Assembly: GCA_009886125.1 (NCBI GenBank) | Contig: VFJK01000046.1 | Location: 1-33,601 of the forward strand | Source: Geobacter sp. | GTDB lineage: Bacteria; Desulfobacterota; Desulfuromonadia; Geobacterales; DSM-12255 | Direction: 5' to 3' | Length of the DNA: 33,601 nucleotides | In this document: piece by piece, positions 15,175 to 24,336 of the stretch | Layout: each line of letters starts with the position of its first letter | Numbering within the stretch: the first letter of the stretch is position 1 | The notes under the pieces: generated by a model | What the model saw: only the letters and a program-made list of their open reading frames with translations | Told to the model about the DNA's origin: nothing | The model's database searches: none | Position numbers and translations under genes: made by a program

Positions 15175-15936
15175 CTATTTCCAGGGATAGGGATTCGGAG
15201 AAGGAACTACATTGTGACAGGCGCCGCAAATATCGTCATAGGTACCGGCTGCCCAGAACGGAGTGGTCGGGCTCGGGACGTTCGACTTATCCTGATGCGG
15301 ATCATGGCAGGTAGTACACTGCATCCTCTCGAGTTTGTCGGTTTTTACATTATTGAGGGGCGGATAAAAATAATTCTTTCCAAAAGTGTTTTGGAGAATA
15401 TTAACGACATCTGAACTGTACTTGAAAGAAACGGGATGATGGGAGGAAAAGGTCTCATAGGCAAGGGTGACACCTGGGCCGGTATTACCCTTGGAATCGG
15501 TAAAATGGATGGGTTGCGGAGTCATAGTAAAGGGTGTACTGAATACTGCGCCAAGTGCAGTAACACCATCATGGCAACTCAAACAGAGGCGAGAGGACCC
15601 GTTCGGCTGACCATATTCGCTTGCAGACCTTAATGCAGGATCATCAATTGAAAGAGTAGTGGATGAATAATGTTTGAACGTCTTTGTAGTAGCCTTCCTG
15701 TTCCAGAGCGGGCCCTCAGCGCTTGCATGGTGAGGCGTGTGGCAGAAAACACAGATCTGCGAGCTTTGCGGAAGGCGTGGATCATCATTAGTCGGAAGCG
15801 CACGATAGTTTACAGAAATATTTGAATACGAAAAATTATGTTTATTACCGTTCTCGGAAATACGTTTCCCGGCTCCTTCTGAAAGGCCTGAAACGGCTAA
15901 GATGATAAATCCTGCTGTAATAATAAGAAATCGCAT
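15175..15936 (-). CDS. Tetraheme c-type cytochrome with CxxCHTPHH motif
   Basis: 253 residues with a signal peptide (to about residue 22) and four CXXCH sites: Cys62 (CVFCHTPHH), Cys118 (CLSCHDG), Cys207 (CTTCHDPH) and Cys237 (CGACHN). The CHTPHH and CHDPH pairs are typical of the doubled-CXXCH cytochrome family of Geobacter and relatives. Between hemes 2 and 3 lies a region with extra HH and His residues that can ligate heme. It starts 4 bp after the NHL lipoprotein gene and runs straight into the octaheme cytochrome gene, so the two cytochromes are likely made together. A redox role in the periplasm or at the cell surface is inferred. Confidence 0.92.
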   Translation of the reverse strand: MRFLIITAGFIILAVSGLSEGAGKRISENGNKHNFSYSNISVNYRALPTNDDPRLPQSSQICVFCHTPHHASAEGPLWNRKATTKTFKHYSSTTLSIDDPALRSASEYGQPNGSSRLCLSCHDGVTALGAVFSTPFTMTPQPIHFTDSKGNTGPGVTLAYETFSSHHPVSFKYSSDVVNILQNTFGKNYFYPPLNNVKTDKLERMQCTTCHDPHQDKSNVPSPTTPFWAAGTYDDICGACHNVVPSPNPYPWK

Positions 15937-15940
15937 GATA

Positions 15941-16981
15941 TTACTGCTTTTCCTTTAAATATTGAAATATCTGCAAACGTTGGTTGTAAGAATCAGAGAC
16001 ATAAATTCTGTCCTCATGATCTATGAAAATCCCGTTCGGCATAAAAAACTGTCCCGGCATTTTACCGGTGTTGCCGATATAAAGCAGAAGCTGCCCGGCC
16101 TGGTTGAAAATCTGGAAATTATCAAAATTCGCATCAATTATATAGATATGAGACTCACTGTCGATTGCAACACCTTTTGGCCGTGCAAAAGTCCCGGGGC
16201 TGTCACCAACAGTACCGATTGTCTTGACAAGATTACCCGCGGGGTCAAACATCTTTATTGTAAAATTGAACGCGTCAGTAACGTAAACATTCCCTTTCGG
16301 ATCAATGGAGATATTTACGGGTCTGTTCAGATTGACTATCTCCGGACGGTTAGGGAACTCCCTCAAAAAACGGTCTTTATCATCAAAAACATTTATTTTA
16401 TTGGCAAGTACATCAACCACATATTTATAGTCATTCCTGCCGACCGCAATCCCGGCCGGGCGCCGGAACTCAACTACACCGGAGCCTAAAACACCCAGAT
16501 ATTCAGAATCCTTACTGTATTTATAGACTTTAGCCTTTACCGAATCGGTCACATAGATATTACCATAACTGTCAAGCGCGACACCTACCGGGCTCGCCAG
16601 AGGCTCAGTCCCTGAATGAGTAATATAGGTGATTTCATTATCGACAAAATCTACTCGGTGAACCAGTCGTGCTGAAGGGTCTGCAATGTATATAAACCTC
16701 TCTCCGTCGGACACGATACCCGCCGGAGTCATAAGTCCAACACCTTGCGGAAGTTCTCCGGTGACAGCTTCAAAGAGTGATTTGAAAGCGCTTTTCGGAG
16801 CGGTAAACTCATCTGGCCCGGTAAATACTTTTAAAAGCTTCACTCTTGGCTGCTCAGGGGGCGGAGGCCATACCTGTGAGACTCCTGAACCGGAAAAAAA
16901 CTCAGATTTTGCCCGTTGATGTGAGCACGCGGTAAGCGATAAGAACAGAAGAACATATATGAATGATTTTATTCTGTTCAA
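15941..16981 (-). CDS. Six-bladed NHL-repeat beta-propeller lipoprotein (TTG start)
   Basis: 346 residues with lipobox LTAC (Cys near residue 19), so membrane-anchored. Six NHL-type blades are visible, each with a PxGI/V start and YV/IxD core: PAGIVSDGERFIYIADP, PVGVALDSYGNIYVTDS, PAGIAVGRNDYKYVVDV, PVNISIDPKGNVYVTDA, PKGVAIDSESHIYIIDA and PNGIFIDHEDRIYVSDS. No in-frame ATG precedes the signal; the start is TTG 16981 with AGGAG six bases upstream. NHL propellers are binding or scaffold modules and are often encoded beside multiheme cytochromes in metal-reducing bacteria. Here the gene sits directly before two of them. The ligand is unknown. Confidence 0.92.
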   Translation of the reverse strand: MNRIKSFIYVLLFLSLTACSHQRAKSEFFSGSGVSQVWPPPPEQPRVKLLKVFTGPDEFTAPKSAFKSLFEAVTGELPQGVGLMTPAGIVSDGERFIYIADPSARLVHRVDFVDNEITYITHSGTEPLASPVGVALDSYGNIYVTDSVKAKVYKYSKDSEYLGVLGSGVVEFRRPAGIAVGRNDYKYVVDVLANKINVFDDKDRFLREFPNRPEIVNLNRPVNISIDPKGNVYVTDAFNFTIKMFDPAGNLVKTIGTVGDSPGTFARPKGVAIDSESHIYIIDANFDNFQIFNQAGQLLLYIGNTGKMPGQFFMPNGIFIDHEDRIYVSDSYNQRLQIFQYLKEKQ

Positions 16982-17989: not shown

Positions 17990-18928
17990 TCAATTTTGAC
18001 CAGCCTGTGACCTCGATGAACGGAGTTTCTCAAGAGACCCTCGTGCATCTGATGCACTCATGTCATCACCTGCTTTCATGTAAATTCTGACTGCCTGATC
18101 CAGATCCTCCTCTGCCCTGCGAAACTCTTTACCAGCAACATTTATTGCCGCAGATCTCTTGAATGAGAGGGCAGCCGTATTATTGTCGCCAAGAAGCTCA
18201 TAAACTCTTCCCATCCCGCGAAGGTCATCAGATACCCTGATTGAAACCGCTACCTCTTTGTCCAGAAGAAGTGCTGTTTGAAAAAGAATCAGAGAATCAG
18301 TAAGCCTTTTTTCAAGCAAAGCTGCCTCGGCGAGAATCCTCAGAGAGTTCCCCTCCTCCCTCTTTTCACCTAAAGACCTGGCTAGCTTTTCAGCAGCTGT
18401 CGCGTTCTCTTTAACATTGAGCAACATCCCTTTCTTAAGATAAATCGAGGCTAAAAAATTCAGCATCCTCGGTCGGTCTTTTTCTCCGGCAGCTTTGACT
18501 GCTTTGCCAGCCCAGAATTCCGAATCATCGAGTGAAGTTTTTTGCAATAAGGATTTAGCTTTTTCGAAATAAACCTCCGCCTCCAGCTCTGGAGTATGCG
18601 CCGATAAATTCAGTGCGTAGTCGATAGCAGCGTCAGCTTTTTCCGAATCACCAATCTTCCTGTTCACTCGGGAACTGTTAATAAGGGTCAAGACCATGCC
18701 GTGGAAATTCTCAACAGAGCTGAAAAGCCGATGAGCTTCCAGAAATTCTGACTCTGCCGCGATCAGTTTCCCCTGAGCCTCTGCATTTACACCTGTCAGG
18801 TTCCTCCGCTCAGCCTGCTGCAGAAAAGACGAAGGCTTCTGCTTTGGTGTTGAAACGCATGAGACAAGAAGAACTGGAGTCAGGATAAAGAGCACGAGTG
18901 GTAGAGTGACATTAATCAGCCTATTCAT
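17990..18928 (-). CDS. TPR-repeat lipoprotein of the Mla-like operon
   Basis: 312 residues with lipobox LLVSC (Cys24) and about six helix-pair repeats rich in Ala/Leu/Glu (for example AEAALLEKRLTDSLILFQTALLL), a TPR superhelix. The start is ATG 18928 with AGGAGGGA just upstream, overlapping the MCE gene stop by eight bases. A longer frame from 18976 would lack a signal peptide. As the last gene of the permease-ABC-MCE operon, it may be the outer-membrane or periplasmic partner of the MCE protein, a position held by MlaA or ABC-type auxiliary lipoproteins in other systems. The exact role is unknown. Confidence 0.85.
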   Translation of the reverse strand: MNRLINVTLPLVLFILTPVLLVSCVSTPKQKPSSFLQQAERRNLTGVNAEAQGKLIAAESEFLEAHRLFSSVENFHGMVLTLINSSRVNRKIGDSEKADAAIDYALNLSAHTPELEAEVYFEKAKSLLQKTSLDDSEFWAGKAVKAAGEKDRPRMLNFLASIYLKKGMLLNVKENATAAEKLARSLGEKREEGNSLRILAEAALLEKRLTDSLILFQTALLLDKEVAVSIRVSDDLRGMGRVYELLGDNNTAALSFKRSAAINVAGKEFRRAEEDLDQAVRIYMKAGDDMSASDARGSLEKLRSSRSQAGQN

Positions 18929-19892
18929 TACTGTCCCTCCTGATAAGGGGGTTCTGTTCGGAAGGTGCAACAGCACTGCTGAGCGGCCATATCCATCTCA
19001 TCCCCTCAAGCAGATCCTGACTCTGCCCTATCACTCCATCAGTCTTGTTTATCAACCTGGGTATCTGCGGAAGAGCCTCAGCTGAAGTCTGTTTCAACTC
19101 CTTTGAGAGAAGCTGAATGTTCTGAAGTGTTACATCAAGTTTTTGAACCATTGGGGGGAGGCTTTTTTCGACAATATTCATGGATCTGTCGACTTTTGAA
19201 AGTACCGGCTCGATCTGCTCGATCCTGGTTCCAGCCATAGTGAGCAGAGAATCGAGTTTTTTACCGGCACTTTCGACAGTGTATTTGCCACTGACAAGCA
19301 ACAGATCGACGCTCTGTCTGCTCTTCTCGAGATTACCAGACACTTCTCTCAGATTCCGGATAGCCTGCTTGATATCGCCGTCTTCTCTATTGATGTAGGC
19401 AATGATATCCCTGATATCCAGAAGCACAGGAGTAACTTTTGAAGCAAGTTCATTGGCAATATCTTCAAAAGCCATGGAGCTTCCGAGCGTAATCACTCCG
19501 TTCTCAGGAATAAGTTCTGGTGAGGTCCCGCTGGTGATTTCGATGATAAAGTCACCGATCATCCCTTCTTTGATCAGTTTGGCAATTGAGTCCTTACGTA
19601 TCCATTTCTTGTACTTACGGTCAATATGAAGAACGACATCAACAGCCGCTGAGTCATTAAGCGTTATTGACTTCACTCTCCCGATCCGGAAACCGGAAAG
19701 CTTGATCGGCATCCCCTGTGAAAAGCCAGTCCCCTTTGGAGCGATGAGCCGTATCGAATAGGTAGACGTCAACAAATCACTCTCAACTGCTATGAAGAGG
19801 ACAACCGCAAGAACACCGATCACCGCGGTCAGAACGAATATGCCGACCTTTCTTTCAATATTCTTAAATCGTGTGTCAGTACCTGTGATCAT
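18921..19892 (-). CDS. MCE family (MlaD-like) lipid transport protein
   Basis: 323 residues: one N-terminal transmembrane helix (about 16-36), then a single MCE domain (about 44-122, with GTGFSQGMPIKLSGFRIGRV and MIGDFIIEI), then a long helical C-terminal extension (about 140-300) with coiled-coil character. MCE proteins form hexameric rings that carry lipids between the inner and outer membranes. The long helical tail resembles the needle-forming type (PqiB/Mce-like) rather than short MlaD. It overlaps the ABC gene by four bases (ATGA) and has GGAGG about 11 bases upstream. Confidence 0.92.
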   Translation of the reverse strand: MITGTDTRFKNIERKVGIFVLTAVIGVLAVVLFIAVESDLLTSTYSIRLIAPKGTGFSQGMPIKLSGFRIGRVKSITLNDSAAVDVVLHIDRKYKKWIRKDSIAKLIKEGMIGDFIIEITSGTSPELIPENGVITLGSSMAFEDIANELASKVTPVLLDIRDIIAYINREDGDIKQAIRNLREVSGNLEKSRQSVDLLLVSGKYTVESAGKKLDSLLTMAGTRIEQIEPVLSKVDRSMNIVEKSLPPMVQKLDVTLQNIQLLSKELKQTSAEALPQIPRLINKTDGVIGQSQDLLEGMRWIWPLSSAVAPSEQNPLIRRDSNE

Positions 19893-20536
19893 GACGGTGT
19901 GGCACCTCCCGCATTGTAGATGAGATCGGCCTGAATACCTCTCAGAGAGTCCTGATTTGAGGTGATATACATTGAAGTCCTTCCCGCGTCCTGTTCATGA
20001 TAAGACTGTGCGAGTGAGGATAAATGCTTCTGTTCACTTCTACTCAGACCGTCAAGGGTTGACTGATACACCATCAAAAGAGGTTCCTTGAGAAGTGCCC
20101 GCGCAAAGGCTATCTGCCTGCGCTCGAACATGGAGAGACGGTTCGGAAGAACGGAAAGTGATCCATCATACCCTACAACTTCAAGGACCTTACGCCCGCG
20201 TTCCTCAATCTCTGATTTTCTGACAATGCCTTCGTAAGAGATCTGTAACGTAAGGTTCTCCCATACATTCAGATTGGATATGAACCCTCCGTCATCGTAG
20301 ATCACACCGATCCCTTTCCTGAAATCAGAAAGTTCCTTATCATTAAGGAGATACGGCTGGATATCATTGACAGAAAGAACCCCCTCCAGCGGGGGAAGAA
20401 ATCCTGTCAGGAGCCTGACAATAACCCTGGTCTCAATCTCCCTGGAGACAACAATAGCCGCTGATGATCCGCGCCTGACAGAGAAATCAAGCATTGAATC
20501 GACTTCGGCAGCAATAACTTGTGAGAAAAGTACCAT
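19889..20536 (-). CDS. Degenerate ABC transporter ATP-binding subunit (MlaF-like pseudo-ATPase)
   Basis: 215 residues aligning with the ABC fold in order, but every catalytic motif is altered. The Walker A position (about 30-37) reads VSREIETR instead of GxxGxGKS/T. The Q-loop glutamine is lost (IGVIYDDGGF). The signature is LSMFERRQ instead of LSGGQxxR. Walker B reads LLMVYQST instead of LLLDEPT, and the switch histidine is lost (MYITSNQD). The frame is intact, and the gene overlaps the MCE gene by four bases, so it is a maintained protein rather than a decayed pseudogene. It may be a structural subunit, pair with an active ATPase encoded elsewhere, or have lost activity. No clear ribosome site was seen before ATG 20536. 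Confidence 0.82.
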   Translation of the reverse strand: MVLFSQVIAAEVDSMLDFSVRRGSSAAIVVSREIETRVIVRLLTGFLPPLEGVLSVNDIQPYLLNDKELSDFRKGIGVIYDDGGFISNLNVWENLTLQISYEGIVRKSEIEERGRKVLEVVGYDGSLSVLPNRLSMFERRQIAFARALLKEPLLMVYQSTLDGLSRSEQKHLSSLAQSYHEQDAGRTSMYITSNQDSLRGIQADLIYNAGGATPS

Positions 20537-20550
20537 AGAAGAGTCCGATT

Positions 20551-21327
20551 TCAGAAAATGAACGTGAACGAGATAAGAACGTCCAGTATGAAAACAATAA
20601 CCAGACTGTGAATTACTGACTTTGTGCCGGCTTGCGGAATCTGGGTTATACTGTCACCTACCCGCAACCCTGCATTGCATCCAAGTGCTGCAATAACAAC
20701 TCCGAATAAAAGACTTTTTGAAGAGGAGATCAGGAGTTCTCGTAGAGAGAGTACTGAAATAATACCCTGCTTGATATGTGAAAGCGGAATCTGCCAACCG
20801 AGCCATGAAACAAGCAGACCCGAGGATACAGCGATCAGGTTGAAATATGCATTAAGCACAAAAAGAGCAATACCGACGCCTACCACTCTGGGCAAGAGCA
20901 GATACTGCTCTCCCGGGATACCGAGAGTCTCAAGATACTCTATCTCGCCCTTAAGCTTCATCTGGCCGAGCTCGATAGCTATCGCTGACCCACTTCGGGC
21001 GATAACTACCAGGGCCGTTATCAAGGGAGCGAGCTCCCGGATAACGACCCAGACAAAAACTTTTCCAATGAGCGATCCCCTGCCGGCATCAGTTACATTC
21101 GACATCTGGGAGATAATGGCTATTCCGACTGCAATAGATATGACAAAAACAACCTTGAAAGCTTCGTTCCCGGTGAAAAAAACCTGCCTCATGCAAACCT
21201 GCATAACTGATCTGCGGCCACTGACAAGAGTATCTACCAGGCTCTTGAAAACACTTAATAATAGTGTTATCAGGTCAGCGACAGTGATATATGCGGCTAA
21301 AGCGCTTCGTCCCAGGTAAGAAACCAT
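20551..21327 (-). CDS. MlaE family ABC permease
   Basis: 258 residues with the MlaE/YrbE topology of about five to six hydrophobic helices and family-typical stretches: VVFVISIAVGIAIISQ, VIRELAPLITALVVIARSGSAIAIELG and GEIEYLETLGI. It is the inner-membrane permease of a lipid (phospholipid or related) MCE transport system. It is the first gene of the operon. Its coupling-helix segment (EIEYLETLGI) is intact although the ABC partner is degenerate. The short gap upstream (21328-21380) contains no convincing promoter, so readthrough from the helix-hairpin-helix gene is likely. Confidence 0.93.
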   Translation of the reverse strand: MVSYLGRSALAAYITVADLITLLLSVFKSLVDTLVSGRRSVMQVCMRQVFFTGNEAFKVVFVISIAVGIAIISQMSNVTDAGRGSLIGKVFVWVVIRELAPLITALVVIARSGSAIAIELGQMKLKGEIEYLETLGIPGEQYLLLPRVVGVGIALFVLNAYFNLIAVSSGLLVSWLGWQIPLSHIKQGIISVLSLRELLISSSKSLLFGVVIAALGCNAGLRVGDSITQIPQAGTKSVIHSLVIVFILDVLISFTFIF

Positions 21328-21850: not shown

Positions 21851-22600
21851 CTAATGTGGGTTGACCTTCTTTTTGGCAATGCCGGGAAGCATAAGCCTGA
21901 GAGGTGGGACGAAACGGATGGGAGCATTAAAAACCCTGCCATAGAAGCTCCGGGGAAGCGGTGGAAGAGGCTCGGCCTTTTTGATTGAATCAAGTAGAGC
22001 CAGATCCTGTTCACTGCTCCCTGAGCTCTCGATAAGATCGCAGCCAAGAACCTTCCCTTCTCTTGAAATATGGATGTTGACCGAAGCAGCAGAAGTAAAA
22101 GTGCCTTTCGCAGCACCGCTCACCCACCAGACCTCGTTGATACGCCTCATAAGAGTGAAATAATAGACCCTGATATCATCCTTCAGACTCTCACCCTCGG
22201 CAAAACTGGCAAAATGCCCGGAAATCATCCCGAGCCCTATAGAAGTCTCATGAATTGCTTCAGGCGACTGGAGAGCTTTCCGGAGAGAATGCTCTATTCT
22301 CTTGTCAAATTCGGCGACTTCCGGAGATATTTCCGGTACCGGCTGGGTATTCGGCGGAAGAGGGTCGACGGCCTGCGACTGCTCATCAAGGGGTTTTTCA
22401 TCTGGATCAGGAAGAGAGGATATGTTCTGAAGATCGAGGAATACAGGTGGAGCAGGCGGGGCTGTAAAACGACCGGGAAGAGTAAGAAGTGCCGTGACGG
22501 CAATATGAAGGATCAGTGAGATCACAACCGTACAGACGAAGATGTCTACTGATCTTCGTTCCCCGAGAAGGGAGGATGAGGGGTCTGACTGATCGATCAT
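21851..22600 (-). CDS. TonB C-terminal domain protein
   Basis: 249 residues: a cytoplasmic N-terminus, one transmembrane helix (about 20-41), a Pro/Asp-rich periplasmic linker (about 45-95) and a C-terminal TonB-like domain (about 140-235, with INEVWWVSG, VNIHISREGKVLGCDLIESSG and AEPLPPLP). TonB proteins pass proton-motive energy to outer-membrane receptors with ExbB/ExbD. Neither exb gene nor a receptor gene is nearby. The start overlaps the AOR gene stop by four bases, which is unexpected functionally. The Pro-rich linker is short for a span-reaching TonB, so a TolA/TonB-family envelope role is also possible. Confidence 0.85.
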   Translation of the reverse strand: MIDQSDPSSSLLGERRSVDIFVCTVVISLILHIAVTALLTLPGRFTAPPAPPVFLDLQNISSLPDPDEKPLDEQSQAVDPLPPNTQPVPEISPEVAEFDKRIEHSLRKALQSPEAIHETSIGLGMISGHFASFAEGESLKDDIRVYYFTLMRRINEVWWVSGAAKGTFTSAASVNIHISREGKVLGCDLIESSGSSEQDLALLDSIKKAEPLPPLPRSFYGRVFNAPIRFVPPLRLMLPGIAKKKVNPH

Positions 22601-24336
22601 GGCAAAGACGTGAGGAAATCAGTCGCTATAAATGTTCCATGCTCAGTCAGTCCTCTGATTCTATAGTACTTCTGCATCTCCAGATCGAACCTGAGTCTAT
22701 CAAGAGATGGTATCTGTATCCCTTCACCGCTCGACCCGGCTTCGATGAAGAATCTTTCCGGAAGAGTGTCATCACTGGCTGAAAATCCATTCGAGCAGTT
22801 GTAGAAGCGTTCAGTCAGATAGATGTTTCTGCCGATCTCCTTTAACCTTTGCGGGGTAAACTCTTCCCCGGTGGCTGCTGTCAAAAGTTCAGCATACTCT
22901 TCCAGACTTGCACCGAAGAAAGAGAATTTGCAGGCAACCAGAGAATCTATTGCGGCGTTGGCGTCCTCGGCCAGGCTGATTATTCTCGCTTTGCCGTCAA
23001 AAGAGAATCTGTCAGTTGCAACCGGTTTTCTGAGTATTTCATGCGAGACAGGATACGCTCTCAGATGACAACCGCCACGATTACTGGTGCAGTAGGCGAG
23101 CGCCATACCGTATGCGCCTCTGGGATCGTAGGCAGGCAGTTCAAGGCTTTTTACCGTCATTGAGAGATCCGGTCTGCCAATACTCTCCGTATAGCGACGG
23201 GACCCCTGAGAAAGTGAAATCCCTTCTCCAGTCATGGAAGCAATATTGCGAAGGAGGTCGTCGACCTCTGCCGGAGACGGGAATCTTCCTCTTGCCTCAC
23301 CAAAAGCTGAAAGGGTTGCAGCTGCGGAAATCGTATCCATACCGAGTCTGTTACAGAGTGTGTTTGACTTGACGATAGACGCCAGTGAAGAAATCCCGTT
23401 GAGAGCGCCGAAGTGCGAGACGGTTTCATATTCCGGCAGTGGCTCCCCTTCCTTCGTGCTCTTTTTGCACTGAATCGGGCAGCCGTAGCAACCATCCTTT
23501 TTTGCTCCGCACTCCTGCCTGATTGCAATACCGGAGTATGCTGAAGAGTCAGCAAAAACGGTCTTTCTGAAGTTTTCAGTGGGAGCCATCCGCCGTTGAC
23601 GCATCAGATCTACAAGAGCAGGTGTACCGTACTCGGCTATTCCAAGTTCGCCGAAAATGACCGGAGAAGCCCTGAAAAGTCTCAAGACATCGTTTCTGGC
23701 ACTGTCGAAGAGTTTTTTGTCCGCTATCTCCGTTTTACCGGTGCCATTAACGACAATCGCCTTTAGCCGCTTCGACCCCATGACAGCACCGAGTCCACCC
23801 CGACCGACAGAGTTACCCTCACCCATCATGATGTTAGCAAAAAGCACCCCGTTCTCGCCGGCAGGACCGATTGCAGCCACGCTGCCACGATCCGCCAAAG
23901 CAGTGACCGTCTCCTTTACATCACGGCCCCAGAGGGCATCAGCAGGAAGGAGACTGACTACAGCATCTTCGATTGAAAGAGTAACCGGTGTCTTGCTGCG
24001 ACCGGTTATAAAGAGTGCATCTACGCCGGAGGATTTGAGTCGCCAGGCAAACCTCCCGCCGGCAGAACAGTCGTATATGGTACCGGTAAGAGGTGATCGG
24101 GAGACAACTGAGAGCCTGGCAGCAGTTGGTGCGGATGTCCCGCAAAGCGGTCCGACAGAAAATATCAGGGGAATAGCCGGGTCATCAGGCTGAAGCTGGA
24201 AGAAGTCACGCATCAAGCGGACACCAAGACCTCTCCCCCCGAGATAGGCATGAAGAATTTCCTGCGGCAACTCCTCCCGGGCTATAGAACCAGTGGTGAG
24301 ATCGACTCTGAGGATCTTTCCGTTCCAGCCGAACAT
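22597..24336 (-). CDS. Aldehyde:ferredoxin oxidoreductase family protein (tungstopterin, 4Fe-4S)
   Basis: 579 residues spanning the full AOR family: the N-terminal domain (NGKILRVDLTTG, YLGGRGLG, FSVGPLCGTSAP) and the middle and C-terminal domains. The 4Fe-4S ligands are Cys283, Cys286, Cys290 (GCYGCPIQC) and Cys469 (VACKF), with AOR spacing. The pterin-binding region (GRGGLGAVMGSKRLKAI) is present. The family oxidises aldehydes to acids with ferredoxin as acceptor, or works in reverse, using tungsten or molybdenum. It starts 4 bp after manC and overlaps the TonB-like gene. No signal peptide, so cytoplasmic. The substrate cannot be assigned; AOR-like enzymes of anaerobic deltaproteobacteria may act on aliphatic or aromatic aldehydes. 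Confidence 0.93.
   Translation of the reverse strand: MFGWNGKILRVDLTTGSIAREELPQEILHAYLGGRGLGVRLMRDFFQLQPDDPAIPLIFSVGPLCGTSAPTAARLSVVSRSPLTGTIYDCSAGGRFAWRLKSSGVDALFITGRSKTPVTLSIEDAVVSLLPADALWGRDVKETVTALADRGSVAAIGPAGENGVLFANIMMGEGNSVGRGGLGAVMGSKRLKAIVVNGTGKTEIADKKLFDSARNDVLRLFRASPVIFGELGIAEYGTPALVDLMRQRRMAPTENFRKTVFADSSAYSGIAIRQECGAKKDGCYGCPIQCKKSTKEGEPLPEYETVSHFGALNGISSLASIVKSNTLCNRLGMDTISAAATLSAFGEARGRFPSPAEVDDLLRNIASMTGEGISLSQGSRRYTESIGRPDLSMTVKSLELPAYDPRGAYGMALAYCTSNRGGCHLRAYPVSHEILRKPVATDRFSFDGKARIISLAEDANAAIDSLVACKFSFFGASLEEYAELLTAATGEEFTPQRLKEIGRNIYLTERFYNCSNGFSASDDTLPERFFIEAGSSGEGIQIPSLDRLRFDLEMQKYYRIRGLTEHGTFIATDFLTSLP

Follow-up and report, generated by a model that had tools for sequence, protein, structure and literature searches.

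The stretch of DNA analysed here (33,601 nucleotides of Geobacter sp. contig VFJK01000046.1, called the window below) carries on its minus strand a four-gene operon that encodes a permease, an ABC-like protein, an MCE protein and a TPR protein. The permease (20551..21327, minus strand) belongs to the MlaE family (Pfam PF02405, 167 bits with a cut-off of 22.5), and both the permease tree and a residue table place it in a distinct clade, denoted MlaE*. Its stop codon is followed after a 14-bp gap by the gene for the ABC-like protein (19889..20536, minus strand), a 215-aa pseudo-ATPase (pseudo-MlaF) with a full ABC fold and no catalytic motif, and this gene shares 4 bp (19889-19892) with the start of the MCE gene. 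The MlaD-type MCE protein, from the same operon as the permease, has 323 aa (18921..19892, minus strand; Pfam PF02470, MlaD, 49.9 bits), and the TPR protein (17990..18928, minus strand; Pfam TPR_12, 38.8 bits) is a probable lipoprotein with a lipobox-like LLVSC; we placed its start at the ATG at 18928, the listed open reading frame beginning at the GTG at 18976. The original prediction had described an ABC subunit that keeps its open frame, its fold and its overlap with the MCE gene, in the company of a permease and an MCE protein that look intact, and on each of these points the gene coordinates and profile scores agree with it.

The locus thus has the MlaE permease, the MCE protein and the ABC-fold nucleotide-binding domain (NBD) adjoining the permease that are expected of an MlaFEDB-type (type VIII) transporter, while an NBD with Walker A, Walker B, signature and switch histidine is what it lacks. 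Since the pseudo-ATPase nonetheless scores 30.5 bits against Pfam ABC_tran (cut-off 25), such proteins can be annotated as ATPases. It falls well below the cut-off of 441 of the MlaF equivalog NF008809 (42.9 bits), as does the intact MlaF of the same genome (192.2 bits). Elsewhere in the window there are a cytochrome-like protein (Pfam doubled CXXCH) adjoining an NHL-repeat protein (15175-16981), an aldehyde ferredoxin oxidoreductase (22597-24336) and after it a protein whose C-terminus is TonB-like (21851-22600), and an intact ABC ATPase (L004, 4097-4774) that is FtsE-like by sequence reading.

An ABC fold without its catalytic motifs

The AlphaFold2 model of the pseudo-ATPase shows a full ABC fold (pLDDT 93.5, pTM 0.89), and among solved structures VIA-align ranks MlaF in MlaFEDB highest (6xbd_I, Z 26.7, rmsd 2.1 over 213 residues); ranked by E-value, Foldseek puts FtsE first, closely followed by MlaF and the ATPase chains of the Mce1 complex. 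The match stops at MlaF residue 242, and the C-terminal extension of MlaF appears to be absent. Since this extension is reported to be what E. coli MlaF needs in order to stay on the complex (PMC7367683), docking of the pseudo-ATPase must be stabilised otherwise. The system shares with E. coli MlaFEDB the three-part core of permease, NBD and MCE protein, the MlaF-like fold and the Pfam MlaE permease, but its permease and its NBD each fall into a separate clade, neither mlaB nor mlaC was seen alongside in the window, and a TPR protein follows instead. Its permease retains the core MlaE residues and the region of the coupling helix, which in MlaE is described as lying between TM2 and TM3 and binding MlaF (PMC7790496). 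Within K126-G127-E128 of the window permease, a glycine stands where all 24 ordinary MlaE examined have glutamate, a replacement present in 88% of the 48 rows. The MCE protein consists of an N-terminal membrane helix, one MCE domain and then long predicted helices; its model has a pLDDT of 64.2 overall and of 73-88 per ten-residue block over residues 11-140, the helical tail being of low confidence. At 323 aa it is longer than E. coli MlaD (183 aa), resembling in this the Veillonella system, where the same MlaE-MlaF-MlaD core has an elongated MlaD and is reported to form a minimal transenvelope bridge (PMC10665443). In contrast to that system, the MCE protein here has no predicted C-terminal barrel (in a low-confidence model), the ATPase is dead and there is an additional TPR protein. 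MlaEFD is described by the same source as the likely ancestral core, and MlaF annotations as uncertain (PMC10665443).

The original prediction held that every ATPase motif has been replaced, and alignment of the window protein with 12 MlaF, among them the intact one of its own genome (L068), bears this out. In the former Walker A (residues 30-37, VSREIETR, 20426..20449, minus strand) the positions of G/G/G/K/S are taken by V30/E33/E35/T36/R37, and the Q-loop glutamine is D81. The former signature (residues 134-138, LSMFE, 20123..20137, minus strand) has S135-M136-F137 in place of SGG. In the former Walker B (residues 154-160, LMVYQST, 20057..20077, minus strand) the Asp-Glu pair is Q158-S159, these two residues being matched by their spacing to the D-loop, where the aspartate has become S165. 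Finally, the switch histidine is Ser193 (19958..19960, minus strand).

The same losses run through the whole family. Among 45 full-length sequences of the order, counted by alignment column, none has a complete Walker A, the Walker A lysine, the signature SGG or the switch histidine; the Walker B Asp-Glu pair is kept in one (L079), the D-loop aspartate also in one, and the Q-loop glutamine in four. Thirteen relatives from outside the order, counted in the same way, have no complete Walker A, SGG, Asp-Glu pair or switch histidine, whereas the 12 MlaF controls have Walker A, its lysine, SGG, Asp-Glu and switch histidine in 12 of 12 each and the Q-loop glutamine in 11. These counts, like the ABC tree, are made without L083 (one half of a broken frame that lies in two pieces) and L181 (incomplete, without the Walker A stretch). 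Walker B was tallied per alignment column, as a regular expression (0/60) demanded a set residue after the glutamate and was too narrow; the regular expression for the signature matched 6 of 60 sequences, none of them at the signature position. Depending on which of two alignments is used, 11 or 12 of the 13 outside relatives have a lysine at the Walker A position, with the glycines gone, and 12 of the 13 retain the aspartate of Walker B. These remnants suggest descent from an active enzyme, with a decay that would have been uneven, since L079 still has Asp-Glu and nearly all outside relatives the Walker B aspartate. In sum, an intact site was seen in no orthologue, whether from the order (0/45) or from outside it (0/13), so that the conserved pseudo-ATPase of the original prediction stands. 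An assembly or sequencing error has a negligible probability: the same losses occur in 46 genomes of the order and in the 13 outside relatives, and this sharing by independent genomes excludes it. Decay specific to one lineage was rejected on the same distribution.

The two trees are in line with this. The 60 permease rows (48 from the order and 12 from outside) stand apart from 24 ordinary MlaE with support of 100/100, and so do 58 pseudo-ATPases from 22 active ATPases (100/100). One ancient loss of the ATPase motifs is the simplest reading, although the long branches and the midpoint rooting, which was chosen for drawing only, call for caution.

In an ABC dimer, each ATP site combines Walker A and B from one subunit with the signature from its partner. 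The pseudo-ATPase has lost both halves, so that a complete site is missing from its homodimer and equally from a dimer that pairs it with an intact MlaF, from which we infer strongly that the pseudo-ATPase complex would not hydrolyse ATP and would not power itself. Degenerate NBDs kept by selection are described also in heterodimeric ABC exporters such as MsRv1273c/72c. The family differs from these in that no complete ATP site is possible with a pseudo-ATPase subunit. TAP is a heterodimeric ABC exporter with one degenerate site, and such exporters keep one full ATP site.

Spread, co-inheritance and selection

With the window permease as query, a close relative (E <1e-50) was found in 48 out of 141 genomes of the order, with a clear gap between these MlaE* relatives and ordinary MlaE (E about 1e-25). 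In 21 genomes the ABC-like and MCE genes adjoin the permease (among them G049, in which the ABC-like frame is broken). A pseudo-ATPase profile (A1) built from 20 sequences found a close relative in 46 of the 141 genomes, all of them among the 48 with the permease (Fisher p 3e-35). The two permease genomes without a pseudo-ATPase are G072 (66% complete) and G083 (76% complete), while every genome with the pseudo-ATPase (46/46) has the permease. One TGA lies within the profile match in each of G113, G114 and G116, and the G113 match extends one codon past the gene end.

For 27 genomes in which the permease stands without ABC and MCE genes, an orphan permease was considered and rejected, as the profile search located the partners elsewhere in 25 of them. 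In these 25 genomes the permease lies apart, and its three partners, the genes for the pseudo-ATPase, the MCE protein and the TPR protein, are clustered together (25/25). The split-locus genomes form a single group in both trees (27 rows, support 98/96, in the permease tree; 25 rows, 100/99, in the ABC tree). Permease and pseudo-ATPase are therefore inherited together although unlinked, which is good evidence of parts that work together. Of the 27 split permease loci, 10 had visible neighbours; in all 10 a metallo-beta-lactamase-fold gene lies beside the permease and in 9 of them a fructose-bisphosphatase gene as well, both identified from sequence. In one genome (L181, G088:C23) a second, partial cluster of the split type accompanies a four-gene operon, perhaps as contamination. 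The TPR gene is present in 44 of 47 loci, two of the other three stopping at a contig end; a crude lipobox expression matches 34 of the 44 TPR proteins, some of the matches lying upstream of the likely start. The MCE alignment was made from 32 of the 47 loci, and L113, at a contig end, has no permease row. Hence this is an old family in which the ATPase is dead by sequence, the ABC fold is retained, and the subunit is co-inherited with the permease, the MCE protein and nearly always the TPR protein.

The 13 outside relatives comprise one genome of the same phylum (L185), eight Gallionellaceae/Nitrosomonadales, one betaproteobacterial MAG, two proteobacterial MAGs and one Prosthecobacter MAG. 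Scanning contigs with one short peptide pattern gave 64 loci, namely 14 from the order, 12 pseudo-ATPases from outside it and 38 ordinary ones; the 12 were classed by reading the alignment, and the 38 show ordinary ABC motifs. A DNA pattern of the conserved block (see below) was found in at least three of 395 genomes of the phylum (G000, G124, G289) and, with up to two mismatches, in at least one of 240 Verrucomicrobiota, which is the Prosthecobacter MAG itself; since the pattern is insensitive, recovering two of five known positives of the phylum (G000, G124, G070, G138, G140), these counts are lower bounds. The verrucomicrobial case is one MAG contig with a very long branch in the trees. In 1949 plasmid records there was no match at 60% identity or more.

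Motif loss is also what one would expect of a decaying remnant without function, and the rate ratios of the gene might be read in the same way: in the ten close pairs listed with all three genes, its omega exceeds that of the permease in 10/10 and that of the MCE gene in 8/10. The values themselves, however, are well below 1. Among 18 close pairs, taken as those with more than 40 shared pentapeptides and not independent of one another, omega (Nei-Gojobori) is 0.11-0.29 in 17, and 0.42 in L083/L085, a pair that includes a broken frame. The pseudo-ATPase is under purifying selection in the testable pairs, less tightly than the permease and the MCE gene. The check for purifying selection proposed in the original prediction is thus borne out for the family; the window gene itself has no ABC pair close enough for dN/dS, and its MCE gene is saturated in dS with the two nearest genomes (L070, L071). 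Across 47 loci all frames are open except those of L083, which is broken, and L181, which a contig end truncates; the fold is intact, and 13 columns are invariant in 20 pseudo-ATPase rows. With so much against it, a remnant is very improbable, and a pseudogene was rejected. The broken frame (L034/L083), which lies in two pieces, is probably a draft error, since a gene about 3 kb upstream on the same draft contig is likewise split, into three ORFs.

Selection has kept one part of the protein above all others. Residues 83-98, just past the former Q-loop (GGFISNLNVWENLTLQ, 20243..20290, minus strand; common family form GGLISNLKVWENxTLP), are the 16-residue window of lowest entropy, with 0.62 bits as against 1.52 for the best window elsewhere, and Asn88, Leu89, Glu93, Asn94 and Leu97 are identical in 45 of 45 sequences of the order. 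Mean entropy in the pseudo-ATPases is 0.78 bits over residues 83-100, 2.35 in the P-loop, 1.68 in the signature, 1.88 in Walker B and 2.13 over the whole protein; the corresponding values for the 12 MlaF are 0.89 (post-Q-loop block), 0.61, 0.23, 0.80 and 1.33. The motifs that once were catalytic are thus loosely conserved in the pseudo-ATPases, close to the average of the whole protein. In ABC proteins the segment after the Q-loop meets the coupling helix of the permease, and by this analogy the block is expected to be the docking site for the coupling helix.

It is also conceivable that the pseudo-ATPase is a sensor, gating the permease in response to a different ligand, or a partner protein, that occupies its former ATP pocket. 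The former P-loop is indeed non-random (threonine at residue 30 in 34/45, arginine or lysine at 32 in 28/45, glutamate at 33 in 28/45), but the mean entropy of residues 30-38 (2.35 bits) lies above the protein mean (2.13), so that no strict new pocket is visible and this explanation appears rather improbable.

Energy source and a possible lipid bridge

The original prediction had left a choice between a structural or regulatory role and a system energised by a different ATPase, and had proposed a search for a second mlaF. The genome has one, an intact MlaF on C125 that adjoins an mlaE and an MCE gene of its own, as well as a third, an orphan intact MlaF-like ATPase on C186 (L208:1321-2199) whose fetched surroundings contain no MlaE. 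The complex might thus be energised by borrowing an intact MlaF that belongs to another MCE system, the pseudo-ATPase filling the site at rest or regulating the exchange. There is a precedent in the mycobacterial Mce1 and Mce4 systems, which likewise have an MCE channel on a YrbE (MlaE-like) permease and whose active ATPase, MceG, is reported to be encoded elsewhere and is thought to be common to several MCE systems (PMC9882608); the system described here differs in keeping a dead NBD. However, the orphan MlaF (E up to 1e-60), present in 81 of the 141 genomes of the order, is no commoner with the permease (26/48) than without it (55/93, Fisher p 0.59), being absent from 22 of the 48 permease genomes. 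It does not co-occur with the permease as an ATPase of the MceG type would, and thus is not tied to the pseudo-ATPase system; its co-option by the MlaE* permease was rejected. Moreover, the pseudo-ATPase gene accompanies the permease in 46 of 48 genomes, which is what one would expect of a constant partner, and the loss of its signature spoils the site of a mixed dimer too, although a full swap of an MlaF pair for the pseudo-ATPase pair is possible. Overall, we regard a borrowed MlaF as unlikely.

The orphan MlaF may instead serve MlaE loci without an ABC gene, as MceG does. Such loci make up 12 of 24 ordinary MlaE rows, judged within the fetched stretch, and fall in one clade. This clade of ordinary MlaE is well supported and consists of L069, on C111 of the same genome, and 11 more rows; an MCE gene lies downstream of the ABC-less MlaE at L069. 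The same genome also has, at C139:28810-29853, a single open frame of 628 aa in which three MCE domains follow one another (PqiB/LetB-like).

Thus, of the choice left by the original prediction, the structural part is favoured by the conservation of the expected docking block, the lack of association with the orphan MlaF and the loss of the signature, although sequence cannot fully separate it from the part that invoked another ATPase. We consider it somewhat probable (roughly 0.6) that the operon encodes an MCE lipid transporter in which the nucleotide-binding subunit has turned into a permanent structural part. By homology, two pseudo-ATPases would dock beneath the permease dimer, with the conserved GGLISNLKVWEN block and the coupling helix making the contact, and the docked pair would hold or gate the permease. 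The MCE proteins would form a hexameric channel above it, with the TPR protein touching the outer-membrane side. Lipids would then pass through the permease and the MCE ring without ATP hydrolysis by the complex, moved by affinity or along a gradient, most simply outwards.

Several observations count against a structural role: ordinary Mla needs catalysis, the decay of the motifs is uneven, the C-terminal extension of MlaF appears to be absent, the MCE protein has a poorly modelled helical tail, and the genome has two intact MlaF-like ATPases that might be borrowed. As to the first, E. coli MlaF K47A and E170Q are reported not to complement (PMC7367683), and since a catalytically dead MlaF fails in this way, the job of the pseudo-ATPase system would not be ordinary Mla function. 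Passive flow of lipids through the system is likely. In E. coli Mla, a review reports spontaneous transfer of lipid from MlaD to MlaC, which ATP hydrolysis prevents (PMC10212509), and a dead ATPase would therefore leave such a passive route open. The presence of an outer-membrane lipoprotein is reported for Pqi (PMC10897342). Other MCE systems, too, do without their own ATP hydrolysis, PqiABC and LetAB, but the system described here keeps the ABC permease and the NBD fold. PqiABC and LetAB are MCE systems without an ATPase, and PqiA and LetA are unrelated to MlaE.

Searches of the full texts open in PubMed Central, a collection outside which most subscription papers and bioRxiv lie, listed nothing that by title or start of abstract describes a dead ATPase in an MCE system. 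Whatever the pseudo-ATPase system does, no ATP hydrolysis of its own is probably involved, and the evidence suggests that a complex of the Mla kind with a dead ATPase is a lipid bridge not driven by ATP of its own. More tentatively, this may be an ABC-type family that gave up ATP altogether and became a passive lipid bridge spanning the envelope, in which the former motor serves as a fixed bracket or gate beneath the permease and phospholipid flow towards the outer membrane is favoured, a direction reported to be suppressed by ATP hydrolysis in Mla. The route by which phospholipids reach the outer membrane, the direction of MCE transport and its power source are open and disputed. A natural Mla-like machine in which evolution has switched off the ATPase separates the lipid path from the motor and so makes the question testable.
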